Below, in pieces: positions 39,731 through 48,404 of a stretch of DNA of 48,404 nucleotides. Position numbers and translations under genes: made by a program. This DNA comes from an uncultured Bacteroidota bacterium (GTDB taxonomy: Bacteria > Bacteroidota > Bacteroidia > NS11-12g > UBA9320): positions 1 through 48,404 of the forward strand of contig CAJXBI010000007.1 of assembly GCA_913050005.1 (NCBI GenBank), written 5' to 3'. Below the pieces are notes generated by a model. It was given only the letters and a program-made list of their open reading frames with translations. It was not told the origin of the DNA and made no database searches. Numbering within the stretch: the stretch's first letter is position 1; every line of letters starts with the position of its first letter.

Positions 39731-40036
39731 ATGATGGTAGATATAACTGTTGAAGAGTTAAAGCAAAAGATTGATAACCAAGATGACTTTCTTCTAATTG
39801 ATGTTAGAGAAGATTGGGAATACAATGAATTTAATATTAATGCTAAACTTATTCCTTTAGGATCACTTCAGGGTGCGATTGATGATTTAGATGATTGGAT
39901 GGAAAAAGAGGTTGTAGTCCATTGTAAGTCTGGAGGCAGGAGTGCAGCAGCAAAAGAGTTTATGATGCATCAGGGGTTCAAAAATGTTAAGAATCTCCTG
40001 GGCGGTATGTTAGCGTGGCAAGCCAAATACGGTTAA
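39731..40036 (+). CDS. Single-domain rhodanese-like protein
   Basis: A 101-residue cytoplasmic rhodanese domain that moves sulfane sulfur or acts as a phosphatase-like fold. It has LLIDVREDWEYNEFNI and the active-site loop HCKSGGRS with Cys65. The family's length and order are complete. The last 22 bases overlap the start of the multihaem cytochrome gene in another frame, suggesting translational coupling. A role in sulfur handling for that gene is inference. Confidence 0.9.
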   Translation: MMVDITVEELKQKIDNQDDFLLIDVREDWEYNEFNINAKLIPLGSLQGAIDDLDDWMEKEVVVHCKSGGRSAAAKEFMMHQGFKNVKNLLGGMLAWQAKYG

Positions 40037-41940
40037 AATATCGATTTAAAAAACTAATTGTTTTTCTAGGACTAATTCTATTAGTCTCTATACTAATGTA
40101 TTGTTCTGATTATTTTCTGGACTCTTCTACTGATTTCCATTATGCTAATCATTCAGACAGTGTTGCGTATGTTGGTATGCAAACATGTGCTAATTGTCAT
40201 CAAGATAAACACCAAACATTTGTTCATACGGGAATGGGGCTATCGTTTGATGTTGCAACACGTCAAAAATCTTCAGGTATTTTTGGTGCAGGTCATCAAG
40301 TATATGATTCATTTTCAAATATGCATTATTATCCTTTTTGGAGGAATGAAAAACTTTACATTAAAGAGTACAGACTTTCAGATACGGATACCACTTACCA
40401 ACTAACCAAAGAAATTAATTATATAGTTGGAAGTGGGCAACACACCAATTCACATCTGCTAGAAAAGAACGGCTATATTTATCAGGCTCCCATTACTTTT
40501 TATGTACAAAAACAAAAATGGGACCTTGCCCCAGGTTTTGAAGGTGGCAATAACTCTCGGTTTAATCGTATTTTAAATTCAGAATGCATTAGCTGTCATA
40601 ATTCAATGCCCAAGCTTGAAGATAATTCCCAATTCAAATTCACTAGTATAGGTAATGGAATTGATTGTGAACGATGTCACGGACCAGGCGAATTACACGT
40701 TAATCAGCGATTAAATGGACAAGGAGTAGACGTAAAAAAAGAAATTGATCCAACGATTGTAAATCCACGAAAACTATCTTGGAATCGTCAAATTGATCTG
40801 TGTCAACGTTGTCATCTTCAGGGTCTTAATGTTCTTAAAGAAGGTAAAAAGTTTACAGATTTTAAGCCAGGAATGAAGCTAAGTGATATTTTTGAAATAT
40901 ACCTACCAGAATACGAGGGAAATCAATCGCATTTTGATATGGCCAATCACTCACAACGCTTCCAGATGAGTATGTGTTTTACATCATCAAATAATGCAGA
41001 TCTAGAATTTACGTGTATATCATGTCATAATCCTCATGTTAGTGTTAAGGTGACAGGAACTGAAGTTTATAATACTGCTTGTGCTCAATGTCACGAACAA
41101 AAGGACTGTTCAACTCCTGGTGATAAACTTATGGCGGCTAATTATAATTGTGTATCGTGTCATATGCCTCCAAGTAGCTCTGAGGATATTCCTCACGTAA
41201 GTGTTCATGATCATTACATTAGAAAACCCCAGAAAAATGAATATAATCTAGATCAAATGCAAAAGTTACTAGGTTTATATGCCGTTAATAATTCTCAACC
41301 TACAATTGAACGCCAAATATTGGCTTATTTAGAATACTGGGAAAAATTTGATAAAAATCCGTTTTACCTCAATAAGGCAAAAGAATTATTGCTAAAAAAT
41401 GATTTCCCCAAACTTTGGATGAAATATTATTATTTAAATGAGGAATATGAAAAAGTAACCGAACTTACTTTTAAATACGGTGAGCTAAATGCATGGCAGA
41501 ATTTTATGATGGGAGAGAGTTATAACAGAGTAAAACAGCCAAGTCAGGCGCTTTATTACACTAAAAATGCTTATGAACTAGAACCTACAAATCAGCTTTT
41601 TGGAGTTCAATTACTCAAGCGTCTTGTTGCCAAAAAATCCCTTAATCAAGCAGAAAAATTTGGGTTTAATTTACTTACTGATTTTAGTGATAACTCACAA
41701 ATATTAAATAGTTTAGCAAAAATTTACGTACTTAAAAATCAACTATCTAAGGCTAAGCAATATGTAAGTAAAGCATACTTATTTGATCCAGACGACATAT
41801 CAATATGGTTGACATATTTGAATTTGTCAGTTAAATTGGGCGATGCAGATAATTTCCAAAAATGGCTCTATAAAATTCAGCAAAGACAACCTGATTTTAT
41901 TCCACCAGATCAAGTTGATAGAATAGTAGACAGTTTCTGA
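40015..41940 (+). CDS. Multihaem cytochrome c-like protein with C-terminal TPR-like region
   Basis: A 641-residue membrane-anchored or exported protein. One hydrophobic helix lies at about residues 14-30, followed by seven CxxCH haem c motifs between about residues 59 and 385 (CANCH, CISCH, CERCH, CQRCH, CISCH, CAQCH, CVSCH), the cytochrome c554-like arrangement. Residues of about 400-640 are helical repeats of TPR type (SQALYYTKNAYELEPTNQLF). The GTG at 40015 is the only start between the in-frame stop at 39988 and the helix; no ATG is available. It overlaps the rhodanese gene. Electron-transfer partner and substrate are unknown. Confidence 0.85.
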   Translation: MASQIRLKYRFKKLIVFLGLILLVSILMYCSDYFLDSSTDFHYANHSDSVAYVGMQTCANCHQDKHQTFVHTGMGLSFDVATRQKSSGIFGAGHQVYDSFSNMHYYPFWRNEKLYIKEYRLSDTDTTYQLTKEINYIVGSGQHTNSHLLEKNGYIYQAPITFYVQKQKWDLAPGFEGGNNSRFNRILNSECISCHNSMPKLEDNSQFKFTSIGNGIDCERCHGPGELHVNQRLNGQGVDVKKEIDPTIVNPRKLSWNRQIDLCQRCHLQGLNVLKEGKKFTDFKPGMKLSDIFEIYLPEYEGNQSHFDMANHSQRFQMSMCFTSSNNADLEFTCISCHNPHVSVKVTGTEVYNTACAQCHEQKDCSTPGDKLMAANYNCVSCHMPPSSSEDIPHVSVHDHYIRKPQKNEYNLDQMQKLLGLYAVNNSQPTIERQILAYLEYWEKFDKNPFYLNKAKELLLKNDFPKLWMKYYYLNEEYEKVTELTFKYGELNAWQNFMMGESYNRVKQPSQALYYTKNAYELEPTNQLFGVQLLKRLVAKKSLNQAEKFGFNLLTDFSDNSQILNSLAKIYVLKNQLSKAKQYVSKAYLFDPDDISIWLTYLNLSVKLGDADNFQKWLYKIQQRQPDFIPPDQVDRIVDSF

Positions 41941-41993
41941 TATAAGCTTTAAAATAACTATTCATTTTCGAGCAAAAAGTTTTCCTTTGTATT

Positions 41994-42341
41994 ATGGCAA
42001 TTATCATAACTGATGAATGTATTAATTGTGGTGCTTGTGAACCAGAATGCCCAAACACGGCTATTTATGAAGCAGGTGCTGAATGGAAAATAGCAGATGG
42101 TACAGGTGTAAAAGAATCTTACAAACTAGAAACAGGTAACGAGGTAGCTGTAGATTCTATTCAACAACCAATATCCGATGAAGTATATTATATTGTTCCA
42201 GACAAATGTACAGAATGCAAAGGTTTTCATGAAGAACCACAATGTGCTGCGGTTTGTCCAGTTGATTGTTGTGTTCCAGATCCTGATAGAGTTGAATCTG
42301 ATGATCAACTTCTTGCCAGAAAAGCTAAACTTCATATTTGA
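41994..42341 (+). CDS. Ferredoxin with two [4Fe-4S] cluster motifs
   Basis: A 115-residue bacterial-type ferredoxin. The first motif is [16 protein letters not shown]; the second is [22 protein letters not shown], with a longer spacer between the second and third cysteines as in the YfhL/Alv-type ferredoxins. The protein carries electrons in the cytoplasm; the partner is not shown by context. The ATG at 41994 fits [13 protein letters not shown]. The stop (TGA at 42339-42341) lies two bases before the next ATG. Confidence 0.92.
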
Positions 42342-42343
42342 TC

Positions 42344-43042
42344 ATGACAAGGGGTATATGTCATATTTCTCAAATCCCTTTAAGAGCTGATTCTAAAAGT
42401 AGCTCAGAGATGGTTAGTCAACTTCTTTTTGGCGAAACATACACCATAATTGAACTACGAGCCGAATGGTCACTTGTTAAGATGGATTATGACGGCTATG
42501 AGGGCTGGTTGAGTAAATCAAGTATTCATATTATGGATATTTCCCAAACTGATTCAGAAACATTTTTGCAGACTGATCTCTTAAAGCATACTAATAATTT
42601 TTTGACTAATCAGCCATTAATTAGTTCAATTGGATCTGAATTAAGGGAAGAAATTTATTCAAACAAACAGTTAAGTGTTTTAGAAATAGCTAGGCTTTTT
42701 TTAGGAGTTCCCTATTTATGGGGAGGTAGACATTTTTCGGGTATTGATTGTTCTGGTTTTGTTCAGGTAGTGTATAAGTGTTTGAATGTTCCCTTACCAA
42801 GAGATGCGTTCAAACAACAAAAAATTGGTAAATCCATTGCTTTTAAAGACCTATTTGATGGTGATTTAGTATTTTTCGATAATGATAATCGCGTATGCCA
42901 TGTAGGAATATATATGGGAAATGGAAAAATAATACATTCTTATGGTATGGTTCGTATTGATGAATTAAGAAAAGAAGGAATATTCAATTCACAAACAAGC
43001 GAACAATCGCATTCATATTATTCTGCAAAGCGAGTACGATAA
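42344..43042 (+). CDS. NlpC/P60 (C40) family peptidase with SH3-like domain
   Basis: A 232-residue peptidoglycan hydrolase. The N-terminal half is a bacterial SH3-like domain (ICHISQIPLRADSKSSSEMV to GYEGWLSKSS); the C-terminal half is the NlpC/P60 domain with the catalytic Cys in GIDCSGFVQ and His in CHVGIYMGNGKIIHS. It would cut stem peptides, usually between D-Glu and the diamino acid. No signal peptide is obvious at the ATG at 42344, so secretion is unclear and a cytoplasmic recycling role is possible. Confidence 0.9.
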   Translation: MTRGICHISQIPLRADSKSSSEMVSQLLFGETYTIIELRAEWSLVKMDYDGYEGWLSKSSIHIMDISQTDSETFLQTDLLKHTNNFLTNQPLISSIGSELREEIYSNKQLSVLEIARLFLGVPYLWGGRHFSGIDCSGFVQVVYKCLNVPLPRDAFKQQKIGKSIAFKDLFDGDLVFFDNDNRVCHVGIYMGNGKIIHSYGMVRIDELRKEGIFNSQTSEQSHSYYSAKRVR

Positions 43043-43089: not shown

Positions 43090-44709
43090 ATGAGCAAATC
43101 AACAGAGTCATGGGGAAGTAGAGTAGGTCTGATTTTAGCCATGGCAGGAAATGCAGTTGGTTTAGGTAACTTTCTTCGTTTTCCAGTAAAAGCCGTCGAA
43201 AATGGAGGTGGAGCTTTTATTATTCCTTACATCATTAGTTTTTTATTAATGGGTATACCATTGCTTTGGGTTGAATGGAGTATGGGACGATATGGAGGTT
43301 CTAAAGGAGATCATAGTACACCTTTTATATTAGACAATATGACAAAGAAAAGTCTTTGGAAGTATTTTGGTGTCTTCGGTATTTTTACAAACATAGGTGT
43401 AATGTCATATTATACTTACATTGAGTCATGGACATTGACTTATACCATAAAATCGCTTAAGGGAGATTTTTTTGGAATGGATATTGCCAAAGTTGGACAA
43501 GTTTTTGATCAATATGTAGATATAAGTGGTGGGATAAATATTCCTATCATCGCACTTTTGGCCTTTACGGTTACACTAGTCATTAATATATATATCCTAT
43601 CAAAGGGTTTAAGTGGTGGTATTGAGAAAGTTGCTAAAATAGCTATGCCATTGCTTATTGGATTTGGTGCTTTCTTAGCGATTATGGCCTTCACTATGGG
43701 AGATACAGGTAAATGTGCTGATTGCAATTCCCATATCGGTATGGACTTTTTGTGGTCACCTCAGTATGATAGTTTATGGAACCCTAAAGTCTGGTTAGAA
43801 GCAGCTGGTCAAATTTTCTTTACTCTTTCAGTAGGAATGGGAACAATTGTTTGTTACTCTTCTTATGTTAAAAAGAAAGACGATATCGCTTTAAATGCAA
43901 TGAGTGCAGGTTGGATGAATGGTTTTGTAGAGATTGTGCTTGGAGCATCTGTTGTTATACCAATTGCTGTCGGTTTTTTGGGTCTGGATTGGGTAAAAGA
44001 AAATGCCGGATTTATGATGGCATTTAAGACAATGCCATATTTATTTGATCAATGGGGACACGTGATTTCTGTAGTTGCTGGAGTGGCTTGGTTTGGCTTG
44101 TTATTTTTTGCTGGAATTACATCATCGTTAGCTATGGGTACTCCCTGGATGGGATTTGTACAGGATGAATTTAATTGGTCAAGGAATAAAGCATCATGGA
44201 CTTTAGGAATTTTTATATTTCTATTGGCTCTGCCTACTATTTTCTTTTTTGAATTTGGTGTATTTGACGAATATGACTATTGGACAGGAACAGTATCTCT
44301 TGTAGTTTTTGCATTGGCAGAAGTGATTTTGTTTGCTTGGGTTTTTGGTATGGATAAAGGATGGAATGAGATTAATTACGGTGCAGATATCAAAGTACCA
44401 ACTATATATAAATTCATTATTAAGTGGGTTACACCACTGTTTATATTAATTATTTTTCTTGCTTCATTATTTACTCCAAAAGATAACGATTGGCATGCAG
44501 CTATAAGCGGCGAATGGATTTTAGATACAAGTAGTATAATAGGGAAAGTGCTCCATATTGGAGAAGATGCGAGTTGGATGCTTGAGGGGAATTTAACAAA
44601 TGTATTTTTTGTTGACATGTCTCGATTACTTCTTCTTTCTACATTTATAGGTTTAGCACTAATGGTTAGGCACGCCTCCAAATTACGTAAAGAAAAATTA
44701 AATAAATAA
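43090..44709 (+). CDS. Sodium-dependent symporter of the neurotransmitter:sodium family (NSS)
   Basis: A membrane transporter of 539 aa with about 12 helices that takes up amino acids or related solutes with Na+. The start GLILAMAGNAVGLGNFLRFP holds the unwound helix 1 sodium and substrate site of LeuT-type carriers, followed by NGGGAFIIPYIISFLLMGIPL. An extracellular loop carries CADCNSH. Two tiny membrane-protein genes follow at 1 and 3 bases, as with the methionine/alanine importer MetP and its small subunit MetS. The substrate cannot be read from sequence. Confidence 0.93.
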   Translation: MSKSTESWGSRVGLILAMAGNAVGLGNFLRFPVKAVENGGGAFIIPYIISFLLMGIPLLWVEWSMGRYGGSKGDHSTPFILDNMTKKSLWKYFGVFGIFTNIGVMSYYTYIESWTLTYTIKSLKGDFFGMDIAKVGQVFDQYVDISGGINIPIIALLAFTVTLVINIYILSKGLSGGIEKVAKIAMPLLIGFGAFLAIMAFTMGDTGKCADCNSHIGMDFLWSPQYDSLWNPKVWLEAAGQIFFTLSVGMGTIVCYSSYVKKKDDIALNAMSAGWMNGFVEIVLGASVVIPIAVGFLGLDWVKENAGFMMAFKTMPYLFDQWGHVISVVAGVAWFGLLFFAGITSSLAMGTPWMGFVQDEFNWSRNKASWTLGIFIFLLALPTIFFFEFGVFDEYDYWTGTVSLVVFALAEVILFAWVFGMDKGWNEINYGADIKVPTIYKFIIKWVTPLFILIIFLASLFTPKDNDWHAAISGEWILDTSSIIGKVLHIGEDASWMLEGNLTNVFFVDMSRLLLLSTFIGLALMVRHASKLRKEKLNK

Positions 44710-44710
44710 T

Positions 44711-44854
44711 ATGAGTAGTTCAGCATTAATAATGATGGTAGTCGTTCAGGTTTCAGTTACTATTATCACGGGATATTTCTTCTACAAAGTATTAGTAACT
44801 CCTACAAAAATGGAGCCTGATTCATACTCCGAAAACGATGACGAAGAAAGATAA
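44711..44854 (+). CDS. MetS-like small subunit of the NSS symporter
   Basis: A 47-residue protein starting one base after the transporter stop: MSSSALIMMVVVQVSVTIIT, then a short linker and an acidic tail (DSYSENDDEER). It has one helix at about residues 5-26. The start MSxSAxxMM plus a single helix is the pattern of the MetS small subunits of NSS methionine/alanine importers. Its size makes it easy to miss in gene calling. The family link is from memory of that pattern, so moderate confidence. Confidence 0.72.
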   Translation: MSSSALIMMVVVQVSVTIITGYFFYKVLVTPTKMEPDSYSENDDEER

Positions 44855-44857
44855 GTT

Positions 44858-45013
44858 ATGTTTATTTTAGAAGCCATAGATAGTGTTCAACGAGCACCAG
44901 ATGCAACAGGACTGTTCTGGGGCATTTCTGAAGTCATAGTTACCCTCATTGTATTCATTGGTGTATACTTAATTTTTAAGCCCGTTTTTGGGGATAAAAA
45001 AGAAAAAGAATAG
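44858..45013 (+). CDS. Second small single-helix membrane protein after the NSS symporter
   Basis: A 51-residue protein, ATG three bases after the MetS-like stop. A short soluble N terminus (EAIDSVQRAPDATGLFWG) precedes one helix at about residues 20-41 (ISEVIVTLIVFIGVYLIF) and a lysine-rich tail (GDKKEKE). I do not recognise a family. Tight spacing with the two preceding genes suggests a role in the same complex; coding status rests on that spacing and the membrane-like composition. Confidence 0.6.
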   Translation: MFILEAIDSVQRAPDATGLFWGISEVIVTLIVFIGVYLIFKPVFGDKKEKE

Positions 45014-45036
45014 TTATGAAACTATTGTTTTAAGCT

Positions 45037-45696
45037 TCAATCTAAATTGGTAGAATCTGTATTCGATGCAGGGAATAATTGTTTCCTAAAAATAAGAATT
45101 GTAAATACTCCAATACTAATTGCTGCGTCTGCAATGTTAAACACTGGTCTAAAAAACTGGAATCGATTTCCACCAATAAATGGAACCCATTCCGGCCATT
45201 GTGTATCTACCAATGGAAAATAAAGCATATCCACTACTTTACCCATGAATAAAGGTGCATAGCCATTTCCTTCATTTAAAAATTTTGCAACATAATGGTA
45301 AGTACTTTCTTCAAAAAAATATCCGTATAATATTGAATCTATAATATTACCAATGGCACCTGCAAGAATCAAGGATATTAAAATAATAGTAATAGATTTT
45401 ACGCCTTCTTTTATTAAACCTTTGATATAAATAATGATTACACAGGATGCTACAATTCTAAATAAAGTTAAGACGATTTTACCCCATTTCCCGCCAAGGG
45501 TTAGTCCGAATGCCATTCCTGGGTTTTCAGTAAAATGTAACTCAAACCAATTAGGGAAAATAGTTTTACTTTCTCCCAACATATAGGTAGTTTTAATATG
45601 AAATTTTAGCCAATGATCAAGTACTAATATTATTATGACTGTCATAATAACATATAGTGCTTGTCTTTTTTGATTAAGGTATGATGTGGATTCCAA
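45037..45696 (-). CDS. lspA: Lipoprotein signal peptidase (signal peptidase II)
   Basis: LspA removes signal peptides of prolipoproteins such as GldK and the cysteine-rich lipoprotein of this window. The 219-residue protein has four transmembrane helices, the NxGMAFG motif (ENPGMAFGL), the aspartate in GAIGNIIDSILYGYF and the second aspartate in FNIADAAISIGV, all active-site regions. An extra loop near residues 115-160 is longer than in the E. coli protein, as is typical for Bacteroidota. The start is TTG at 45696; an internal ATG at codon 18 would shorten the first helix. It lies four bases after the DksA-like gene. Confidence 0.93.
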   Translation of the reverse strand: MESTSYLNQKRQALYVIMTVIIILVLDHWLKFHIKTTYMLGESKTIFPNWFELHFTENPGMAFGLTLGGKWGKIVLTLFRIVASCVIIIYIKGLIKEGVKSITIILISLILAGAIGNIIDSILYGYFFEESTYHYVAKFLNEGNGYAPLFMGKVVDMLYFPLVDTQWPEWVPFIGGNRFQFFRPVFNIADAAISIGVFTILIFRKQLFPASNTDSTNLD

Positions 45697-45700
45697 AGAA

Positions 45701-46081
45701 CTAACGATATTGATTCTTTTTGGCTTCCATACTTTGTGTTGTATGAGGGACAGCTCTAAGTCGCTCTCTACTGATTAAATTACCAGTAACTCTGCATATT
45801 CCATAGGTCTTATTCTCAATTCTTACGAGTGCATTTTCGAGATTTTCTATGAATTTTTGTTGACGTGCAGCAAGTTGACCAGTGCTTTCTTTTTGTTGAG
45901 ATGCACTTCCGTCATCTATCGCAACATATGCACTAGCTGTATCATCCGTTCCATTTTCGTTTTCGGATCTAATTTGCTTTCGTAAATAATTGTATTCTTC
46001 TCTTGCAGATTCTAATTTTTTTAAAATTATTTCTTTGAATTCTGCTAAATCAGCGTCACTGTATCTTAACGATTCTTTCAT
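45701..46081 (-). CDS. TraR/DksA-type protein lacking the zinc cysteines
   Basis: A 126-residue protein with a coiled-coil N-terminal part (about residues 5-80) and a C-terminal zinc-finger-like part where only one of the four cysteines remains (YGICRVTGNLISRERLRAVP). In DksA such proteins enter the RNA polymerase secondary channel and alter transcription; Bacteroidota often carry this cysteine-poor form. The acidic tip residues of classical DksA are seen only in part (DDTASAYVAIDDGSASQ). The ileS-dksA-lspA order is common in the phylum. Confidence 0.88.
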   Translation of the reverse strand: MKESLRYSDADLAEFKEIILKKLESAREEYNYLRKQIRSENENGTDDTASAYVAIDDGSASQQKESTGQLAARQQKFIENLENALVRIENKTYGICRVTGNLISRERLRAVPHTTQSMEAKKNQYR

Positions 46082-46086
46082 AATGT

Positions 46087-48404
46087 TTATTTAGTTAATT
46101 TGATTTGTATTAAGTTAGAGTCAATATCAACCTTATCTGTAGTATTTATATCATCACGCATGATAATTTCCTTCGCAAGAATTTCACCACAAATATATTC
46201 ATTATGTGATTCAATTGCACCTTTAACATAGGAGTCATTGCTAATTGAAACCGTGATTTTATCTGTTACTTGAAAATCTTTTTCTTTTCTTAAGTTTTGA
46301 ACTTTGTTTACAAATTCACGGGCAATACCCTCATTTTTTAATTCGGTGGTTAATTCCAAATCCAGAGCGACAATGTAGTTATTATCACTTATTATTTGCC
46401 ATCCTGGGATATCTGTTGTTTTAATCTCAATATCCTCTATAACTATCTCATAGCTTCTATCTTCAACAGTTATGTGAACAATTTCATCCCTTTCTAGTTT
46501 TGAAATATCATCATTTGTGAAATTGAATATATGACTAGAAACTGCTTTCATATCTTTACCAACTCGCTTACCAAGTGATTTAAAATTTGGCTTTGCAGAT
46601 TTTTTAATGATAGAAGAATCTTTGTCGATTATTTCAATTTCTTTAATGTTTACCTCAGATTTTATGATTTGTTCAACACGCTTTAGCTGATCGCCAAACG
46701 CATCATTAAGTGCTGGAATAATTGCTTTACTAAGAGGTTGACGAACTTTAATTCCTTCTACTTTTCGAATACGAAGTATGAGAGAGGTAATGTCTTGCGA
46801 GATAGCAATTTGACTTTCTAGTTCTGAATTAATCAAATTATTGTCAGCTCGAGGAAAATCTTGTAAATGGATAGATTCATCCATAAATGTAAGATCTCGA
46901 TATAGTCTGTCAGCATAAAATGGACTAAAACTACACATCAATTTTGCTACATTAACGAGACATGTATTTAAAGTTTGATAAGCTGCAATTTTATCTGTAG
47001 TAAGTTCGCCCTTCCAAAAACGACGACGATTTAGTCTGACGTACCAATTACTTAAATCGTTTATTACAAAACTTTGTATCGCACGAGTTGCCTTAGTAGG
47101 TTCGTAATTGTCCATGGCTTTTTCAACCAATTTAGATAATGAATTCAACTTGCTTAAAATCCACTGATCGAGTTCTGTGCGTTGCTTTAATGGAATCTCA
47201 ACTTGGTCGTTTCTAAAATTATCTATATTAGCATAGAGCGCGTAAAATCCGTAAGTGTTGTGCAAAGTCCCAAAAAATTTACGTTGTGTTTCGGTAACCC
47301 CATCCAAGTCAAATTTTAGATTATCCCATGGGGCAGAGTTACTGAGCATATACCATCTAATAGCGTCAGCTCCATATTTTTCTACAGCCATAAAAGGATC
47401 AATGGTATTACCAAGGCGTTTAGACATTTTATTACCGTCTTTGTCTAACACGAGTCCATTAGCAACTACATTTTTGTAGGCAACAGAATCGTTAAGCATT
47501 ACAGATATTGCATGTAATGTGAAAAACCACCCTCTAGTTTGGTCCACACCCTCTGCAATGAAATCAGCAGGATAATTTGTTTTGTTATCAATTTGATTCT
47601 TATTTTCAAATGGATAATGCACTTGAGCAAATGGCATTGCTCCTGAATCAAACCAAACATCAATCAAGTCAGTCTCACGATACATTGGTTTACCATTTGA
47701 ACTCACAAGAGTAATATCATCGATAAACGGACGATGTAAATCAAAATCTGGAGTTATGGTATTTTCGTTCATAAGACCAGCGGTTACAGACTTTGAAACT
47801 TCATTTTTCAATTCTTCGATAGAGCCAATACACAACGATTCTTTTCCATCTTTTGTTCTCCATATCGGAAGAGGTGTCCCCCAATATCTACTTCTACTCA
47901 GGTTCCAATCTACCAAGTTTTCTAGCCAGTTTCCAAATCGTCCTTCTCCAGTGCTTGCAGGCTTCCAATTAATGGTTTTGTTCAGTTCGATAAGACGCTC
48001 TTTAACTGCTGTTGTTTTGATGAACCAGCTCTCTAAGGGATAATATAGAATAGGCTTATCAGTTCTCCAGCAGTGTGGGTAGCTATGTTCGTATTTTTCT
48101 ACTTTAAATGCTTTATTATCTGTTTTGAGACGTATGGCAATTTTTACATCGGTGGTCATGTAGCCATCCGCCTTTTCGTTTTCTTCTTTATAATTTTTAA
48201 CATAAAGTCCAGAAAATTCTCCAACTCCATCCACAAATTTTCCCTCACGGTCAACAAGTGTTAATGAACCTATATTATTTTGTTTTGCGACAATGAAGTC
48301 GTCAGATCCAAAGCTTGGTGCTAAATGAACTATACCTGTTCCGTCTTCTGTGGTTACGAAGTTGGCAGCAATAATTTCAAATGCTTTACCATCTTTAGGT
48401 TGTT
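46087..48404 (-). CDS. ileS: Isoleucyl-tRNA synthetase, C-terminal two thirds (gene runs off the right edge)
   Basis: The reading frame stays open to base 48404, so the N-terminal part with the HIGH motif is outside. The visible part has the end of the editing domain (EDGTGIVHLAPSFGSDDF), WFKTTA-like and SRSRYWGTPLPIWR blocks, ADFIAEGVDQTRGWFFTLH and the KMSKR loop (GNKMSKRLGNTIDP), followed by the anticodon-binding domain and a long C-terminal region. ADFIAEGVDQTRGWF is typical of the eukaryote-like IleRS2 group, known for mupirocin tolerance in other species. No C-terminal zinc finger is seen. The DksA-like gene starts six bases downstream. Confidence 0.95.
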   Translation of the reverse strand, partial: QPKDGKAFEIIAANFVTTEDGTGIVHLAPSFGSDDFIVAKQNNIGSLTLVDREGKFVDGVGEFSGLYVKNYKEENEKADGYMTTDVKIAIRLKTDNKAFKVEKYEHSYPHCWRTDKPILYYPLESWFIKTTAVKERLIELNKTINWKPASTGEGRFGNWLENLVDWNLSRSRYWGTPLPIWRTKDGKESLCIGSIEELKNEVSKSVTAGLMNENTITPDFDLHRPFIDDITLVSSNGKPMYRETDLIDVWFDSGAMPFAQVHYPFENKNQIDNKTNYPADFIAEGVDQTRGWFFTLHAISVMLNDSVAYKNVVANGLVLDKDGNKMSKRLGNTIDPFMAVEKYGADAIRWYMLSNSAPWDNLKFDLDGVTETQRKFFGTLHNTYGFYALYANIDNFRNDQVEIPLKQRTELDQWILSKLNSLSKLVEKAMDNYEPTKATRAIQSFVINDLSNWYVRLNRRRFWKGELTTDKIAAYQTLNTCLVNVAKLMCSFSPFYADRLYRDLTFMDESIHLQDFPRADNNLINSELESQIAISQDITSLILRIRKVEGIKVRQPLSKAIIPALNDAFGDQLKRVEQIIKSEVNIKEIEIIDKDSSIIKKSAKPNFKSLGKRVGKDMKAVSSHIFNFTNDDISKLERDEIVHITVEDRSYEIVIEDIEIKTTDIPGWQIISDNNYIVALDLELTTELKNEGIAREFVNKVQNLRKEKDFQVTDKITVSISNDSYVKGAIESHNEYICGEILAKEIIMRDDINTTDKVDIDSNLIQIKLTK

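Follow-up and report, generated by a model that had tools for sequence, protein, structure and literature searches.

Annotation tends to overlook small membrane proteins, whose function is commonly judged from their operon neighbours. In the 48,404-nucleotide stretch of DNA from an uncultured Bacteroidota bacterium analyzed here (hereafter, the window), the gene of an NSS symporter is directly followed by two tiny genes, s1 and s2, which raises the question of whether the three products form one transporter. The initial annotation had proposed such a joint complex, and the neighbourhood alone does point to a three-part transporter; the comparison of 108 genomes from the order to which the window belongs led instead to a nearly universal s2 and to symporters that are exchanged next to it. 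The relatives compared were metagenome-assembled Bacteroidia.

The ORF coordinates (Table 1) confirm two genes of 47 and 51 codons separated from their upstream neighbours by 1 and 3 bases, and NSS, s1 and s2 all start with ATG. Each small protein contains one strongly hydrophobic stretch, followed by an acidic tail in s1 and a lysine-rich tail in s2, in line with their earlier description as single helices with a charged tail. The common strand and the short gaps suggest that the window's three genes share one transcript. A six-codon frame (ATG AAA CTA TTG TTT TAA, 45017-45034), without evidence of any meaning, lies within the 23-base gap between s2 and the convergent lspA. In the right flank, the two genes that we take to be dksA and ileS were named from their sequence.

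Table 1. Features of the NSS-s1-s2 locus and of its conserved flanks in the window.
Feature	Coordinates	Strand	Basis or remark
Left flank of exchange site, conserved	39731-43042	+	Gene order shared by relatives irrespective of transporter
Rhodanese	39731-40036	+	Left flank
Multihaem/TPR protein (cytochrome)	40015-41940	+	Left flank
4Fe-4S ferredoxin	41994-42341	+	Left flank; Pfam
nlpC, NlpC/P60 with SH3	42338-43042	+	Left flank; Pfam for NlpC/P60
NSS, LeuT-type Na+:amino-acid symporter, 539 aa	43090-44709	+	Pfam SNF PF00209; LeuT alignment
s1, MetS-like single-pass small subunit (putative), 47 aa	44711-44854	+	Gap of 1 base after NSS
s2, single-pass membrane protein, 51 aa, unnamed family, order-specific	44858-45013	+	Profile; selection
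Right flank, convergent with s2	45037-48234	-	Same order in relatives
lspA	45037-45696	-	Pfam Peptidase_A8
DksA-type protein (presumed)	45701-46081	-	Right flank
ileS (presumed), partial frame	46087-48234	-	Right flank

The symporter and its MetS-like neighbour

The NSS protein, present as a single copy of its type in the window's genome, matches the Pfam family SNF over its full length (E=4e-50), and among solved structures those of LeuT are nearest to it (wild-type 2a65, E=2.5e-115, alignment over residues 4-464); this profile match and the conserved Na+/substrate motif of helix 1 place it in the SNF/LeuT type. When aligned with LeuT from Aquifex aeolicus, it shares the helix 1 motif NAVGLGN, V104, Y108 and FFTLS at the pocket, whereas it carries methionines (M250 and M349) at LeuT positions 259 and 359 and, unlike LeuT, has a MetS-like partner gene behind it. 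Judging from the shared pocket residues and the two methionines, the substrate is likely a neutral, hydrophobic amino acid.

The window's symporter is a variant with a short TM11-TM12 loop. In many relatives this loop, periplasmic by LeuT topology, holds an insert of 60-90 aa (L041:4393-4812, L046, L050, L051 and others; within the order, L009, L011, L013 and L014), which AlphaFold2 predicts as a confident beta domain. In Foldseek searches it came closest, with a probability near 1 and E of 0.02-0.1, to cytochrome f and to the sandwich-barrel hybrid region of RNA polymerase beta', and a sub-threshold match to Pfam Biotin_lipoyl_2 was also obtained. The insert would be a candidate periplasmic barrel-sandwich-like domain within an NSS symporter.

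The s1 gene accompanies this symporter with great constancy across Bacteroidota. The s1 profile detected it directly behind NSS in 99 of the 104 loci compared outside the order, and in four of the five loci that it missed an s1 is evident by eye; the commonest offset there is -4 bases, overlapping the NSS stop. Its tail (MEPDSYSENDDEER in the window, also written EPDSYSENDDEER) is usually acidic and PDSYSEND-like across loci. Furthermore, the pooled Jukes-Cantor dN/dS of s1 among the window's close relatives was 0.06, and s1 distances track NSS distances once the effect of species is removed (partial r 0.70).

A comparable arrangement is that of MetPS from Corynebacterium glutamicum, an NSS methionine/alanine importer made of MetP and the small subunit MetS (Trotschel et al. 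2008, as cited in PMC2807442 and PMC3219685). There too an NSS gene is followed at once by the gene of a single-helix protein, and the MetS model fits the first residues of s1; the two systems differ in the conserved acidic tail of s1, in its score below the MetS cut-off and in the fact that the window's NSS is nearest to LeuT. The MetS model NF033493 gave a weak match to residues 1-11 of s1 (12.7 bits, with a cut-off of 25). None of the 198 genomes of the class exceeded that cut-off, the weak matches coinciding exactly with s1 in several of them, and PF16951 was touched by only one of 16 s1 members (E=0.065). The score is thus below the cut-off, but s1 is short, has one helix and lies directly behind NSS, as MetS does; we therefore regard it as MetS-like without placing it formally in the curated family, so that the earlier assignment to the MetS pattern holds for position, single helix and first residues but not for the score. 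By position and architecture, s1 would act like MetS as a dedicated partner of NSS.

An order-specific single-helix protein

The s2 protein comprises a polar N terminus, one helix and the lysine-rich tail KPVFGDKKEKE. Its helix follows the pattern [S/W]E-hhh-T-h-I-V-F-h-G-h-Y-h-I-F-K-P, recognisable in two families of the order as [S/W]E-x3-T-x-IVF-x2-x-Y. In AlphaFold2, run on a shallow alignment of four sequences, helices were predicted at residues 2-12 and 14-44, with a pLDDT of about 90 for residues 21-40, and the positive-inside rule suggests an N-out/C-in topology. The initial annotation had left this protein unrecognised, and this still stands: none of 14 members of the s2 family scanned against Pfam and NCBIfam scored above a curated cut-off, with scattered sub-threshold matches, and no PDB match to the s2 profile was found. 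It is a previously undescribed family.

Relationships to DUF7935, FeoB_associated, the BlyA holin and Flp1-like proteins were considered on account of those scattered matches on the helix, all sub-threshold, and were rejected. The FeoB-associated Cys-rich membrane protein (PF12669) is weakly similar in its helix and basic tail, with a best E of 0.023 among s2 members, but scores are far below the cut-off, and s2 has neither the cysteines nor FeoB. In genome G097 a 48-aa Cys-containing protein encoded directly behind FeoB (L215:3273-3419) has a helix resembling that of s2 (YFIFKPFFSKK); it is probably a FeoB-associated protein whose similarity to s2 is convergent.

A frame as short as s2, with no database family, might be spurious or a regulatory stretch that encodes no protein. 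Against this, conservation is at the protein level across the order, with insertions solely at the ends, and the pooled Jukes-Cantor dN/dS among the window's close relatives was 0.13, synonymous changes far exceeding replacements, which indicates purifying selection; we consider the chance that s2 is not a protein to be negligible. Within the genus, both s1 and s2 are conserved in position and sequence. Purifying selection on s2 is alike with or without a symporter: in one genus, pN/pS was 0.28 in the presence of NSS and 0.13 in its absence, and values of 0.17-0.19 were obtained in two symporter-free genera.

By profile search, s2 was detected in 96 of the 108 genomes of the order, including 62 of the 64 good ones, almost always as a single copy. 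No convincing match was obtained in 295 other genomes of the phylum; six matches outside the order (21-25 bits), mostly inside longer frames, were rejected. Symporters are far less widespread, with NSS in 36 and the alanine symporter AGCS in 15 of the 108 genomes, and 51 s2-bearing genomes possess neither this NSS nor AGCS. These results show that s2 is a real, nearly universal, single-copy core membrane protein specific to the order, which predates and outlasts the symporters next to it.

Exchange of symporters upstream of s2

In the window's family the gene order is constant: rhodanese-multihaem/TPR-ferredoxin-nlpC-[X]-s2-lspA-dksA-ileS, where X is either (i) NSS-s1 of type A, as in the window, (ii) NSS-s1 of type B, whose NSS is about 62% identical to type A, (iii) an AGCS symporter, or (iv) nothing, as in G019, where nlpC is directly followed by s2. 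Genus g4 keeps the arrangement of s2 facing lspA but has different genes on the upstream side. Mapping these four states on the flanking-gene tree of 30 genomes yielded at least 8 changes. In the second family of the order, s2 is usually found near the same rhodanese-cytochrome block without a symporter, next to genes for a CoA-transferase, an M20 peptidase and a RelA-like protein.

The NSS genes adjoining s2 have three separate origins in the tree: type A groups beside Schleiferiaceae/Cryomorphaceae, type B beside Flavobacterium and the NSS of genus g14 beside Pontibacter, and a common origin of these lineages was rejected by the AU test (p-AU 4e-54, 4e-6 and 2e-47). They also occupy two or three chromosomal sites, namely that at lspA, one near TamB and, in G053, a third context. 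At the TamB site of g14, NSS-s1 precedes s2 and a convergent TamB-like gene, and in G350 it lies exactly between s2 and a 151-aa gene which adjoin each other in G051. This 151-aa protein, without a Pfam match, is also found beside s2 in symporter-free g14 genomes (L208:2606-3058 and g14 relatives). NSS-s1 modules of independent origin and the unrelated AGCS have thus been placed into a slot directly upstream of s2.

How does the proposal of one dedicated, obligate complex of NSS, s1 and s2 fare with these data? In its favor, the gene order is tight in the window and s2 lies directly behind NSS-s1 in 27 of the 33 informative genomes of the order with both, the s1 stop overlapping the s2 start in some relatives. 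Lack of such conservation in related species, or of selection on s2, is thus not what counts against the initial proposal. Conservation of the second small gene beside NSS nevertheless ends at the order, NSS-s1 occurring without s2 in all other Bacteroidota examined, and even inside it adjacency is not general: NSS-s1 and s2 lie on different contigs in the remaining six genomes (G054, G370, G383, G384, G386 and G388). Moreover, 63 genomes carry s2 without this NSS, and AGCS stands in for NSS-s1 directly upstream of the same s2 in 9 of the 14 genomes having both. Nor does s2 co-vary with the transporter. Its distances follow the species and flanking-gene tree when NSS distance is accounted for (partial r 0.82), and they show no relation to the type of transporter (partial r -0.04, p 0.75, 28 genomes). 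A weak correlation between s2 and NSS persists once species is removed (partial r 0.34, p 0.04). For instance, the s2 of G023, a genome with NSS, is most similar to that of its sister G027, a genome with AGCS. We therefore reject s2 as an NSS-only subunit, since it persists without NSS and AGCS, adjoins AGCS and tracks species, and regard the obligate three-part complex of the initial annotation as very improbable. A search of the accessible literature found no second NSS small subunit and no small partner of AGCS symporters, and to our knowledge MetPS has no second small gene.

A further caution comes from NSS-s1 loci outside the order, where the gene behind s1 usually encodes a ComEA-like HHH protein (HHH_3; 41 of 72 loci by profile, L029-L101). 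This protein has an N-terminal membrane anchor and is hardly a transporter subunit; thus, a conserved neighbour alone is weak evidence for a subunit. In the Pontibacter loci L048, L062-L065, L072, L074, L083, L086, L088 and L090, an AGCS gene is found on the opposite strand, some 2 kb upstream of NSS; the two kinds of symporter that substitute for one another in the window's family stand close together there.

Transporter helper or permissive slot

Why should symporters of different origin arrive beside the same small gene? One answer is purely positional: s2 would be a housekeeping membrane protein that has nothing to do with the symporters, and its upstream side, where an operon ends against a convergent gene, would simply be a permissive place, an expression or recombination slot. 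The conserved flanks make it possible that symporter cassettes are exchanged through them by homologous recombination. Conservation of both flanks with repeated exchange at one site, the empty site in G019 and the retention of s2 without symporters, with which it does not co-vary, all agree with this explanation, as does the ComEA-like HHH gene, a conserved downstream neighbour that need not be a subunit. It is a serious possibility, although we rate it short of an even chance. Recombination through the flanks leaves unexplained the third-origin NSS-s1 inserted directly upstream of s2 at the TamB site (G350 compared with G051). It does not account either for the co-directional pairs in which s2 is followed, at a distance of a few bases, by the genes of other transporters, namely ZIP in g12 (gap -1 to 9), CDF in g17 (gap 5) and MarC in g168 (gap 1).

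The other answer, to which we assign about an even chance and which is the most likely one, is that this order-specific core protein of the inner membrane, encoded directly downstream of the two-gene NSS-s1 module, is a generic helper of polytopic transporters. Such a helper would tolerate different partners, would not be dedicated to NSS and may contribute to assembly, stability or activity, with the single helix and the acidic residue at its start as the putative contact face. A tie between s2 and transporters is suggested by the three NSS origins, the several chromosomal sites, the AGCS gene in nine genomes and the tight ZIP, CDF and MarC pairs. Close followers of s2 further include a membrane methyltransferase (g13) and another membrane protein (g4). 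Against a helper role speak the six unlinked genomes and the soluble proteins that several s2 genes adjoin (CoA-transferase, peptidase, rRNA methyltransferase). Besides, the pattern of transporter neighbours was recognised in hindsight, with only a crude estimate of the background rate of membrane-protein neighbours, and so it is treated as a hypothesis. On balance, a generic helper role is favoured over a pure positional effect.

The broader form of the helper proposal, put forward tentatively and with less confidence than a generic role as such, is that s2 represents a promiscuous family in which one host-encoded helix would serve whichever polytopic transporter is adjacent, new symporters being recruited into its co-expression slot. 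Candidate partners would possibly be the LeuT-type NSS of three origins and AGCS, and elsewhere ZIP, CDF and MarC. Small membrane proteins of the AcrZ, CcmD and CydX type, listed in PMC10903887, resemble s2: each is about 50 aa long, crosses the membrane once and either works with a large membrane complex or has its gene near those of one. Whereas each of them has one defined partner, s2 stays while unrelated neighbour families change, and no sequence relation to them was found.

Should s2 turn out to be a general helper, the idea that a single small protein can serve several unrelated transporter folds could be put to the test on it, and the repeated arrival of acquired symporters beside it would be explained. 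Otherwise, the locus would illustrate cleanly how an exchange slot at a fixed place can look like a subunit relationship.
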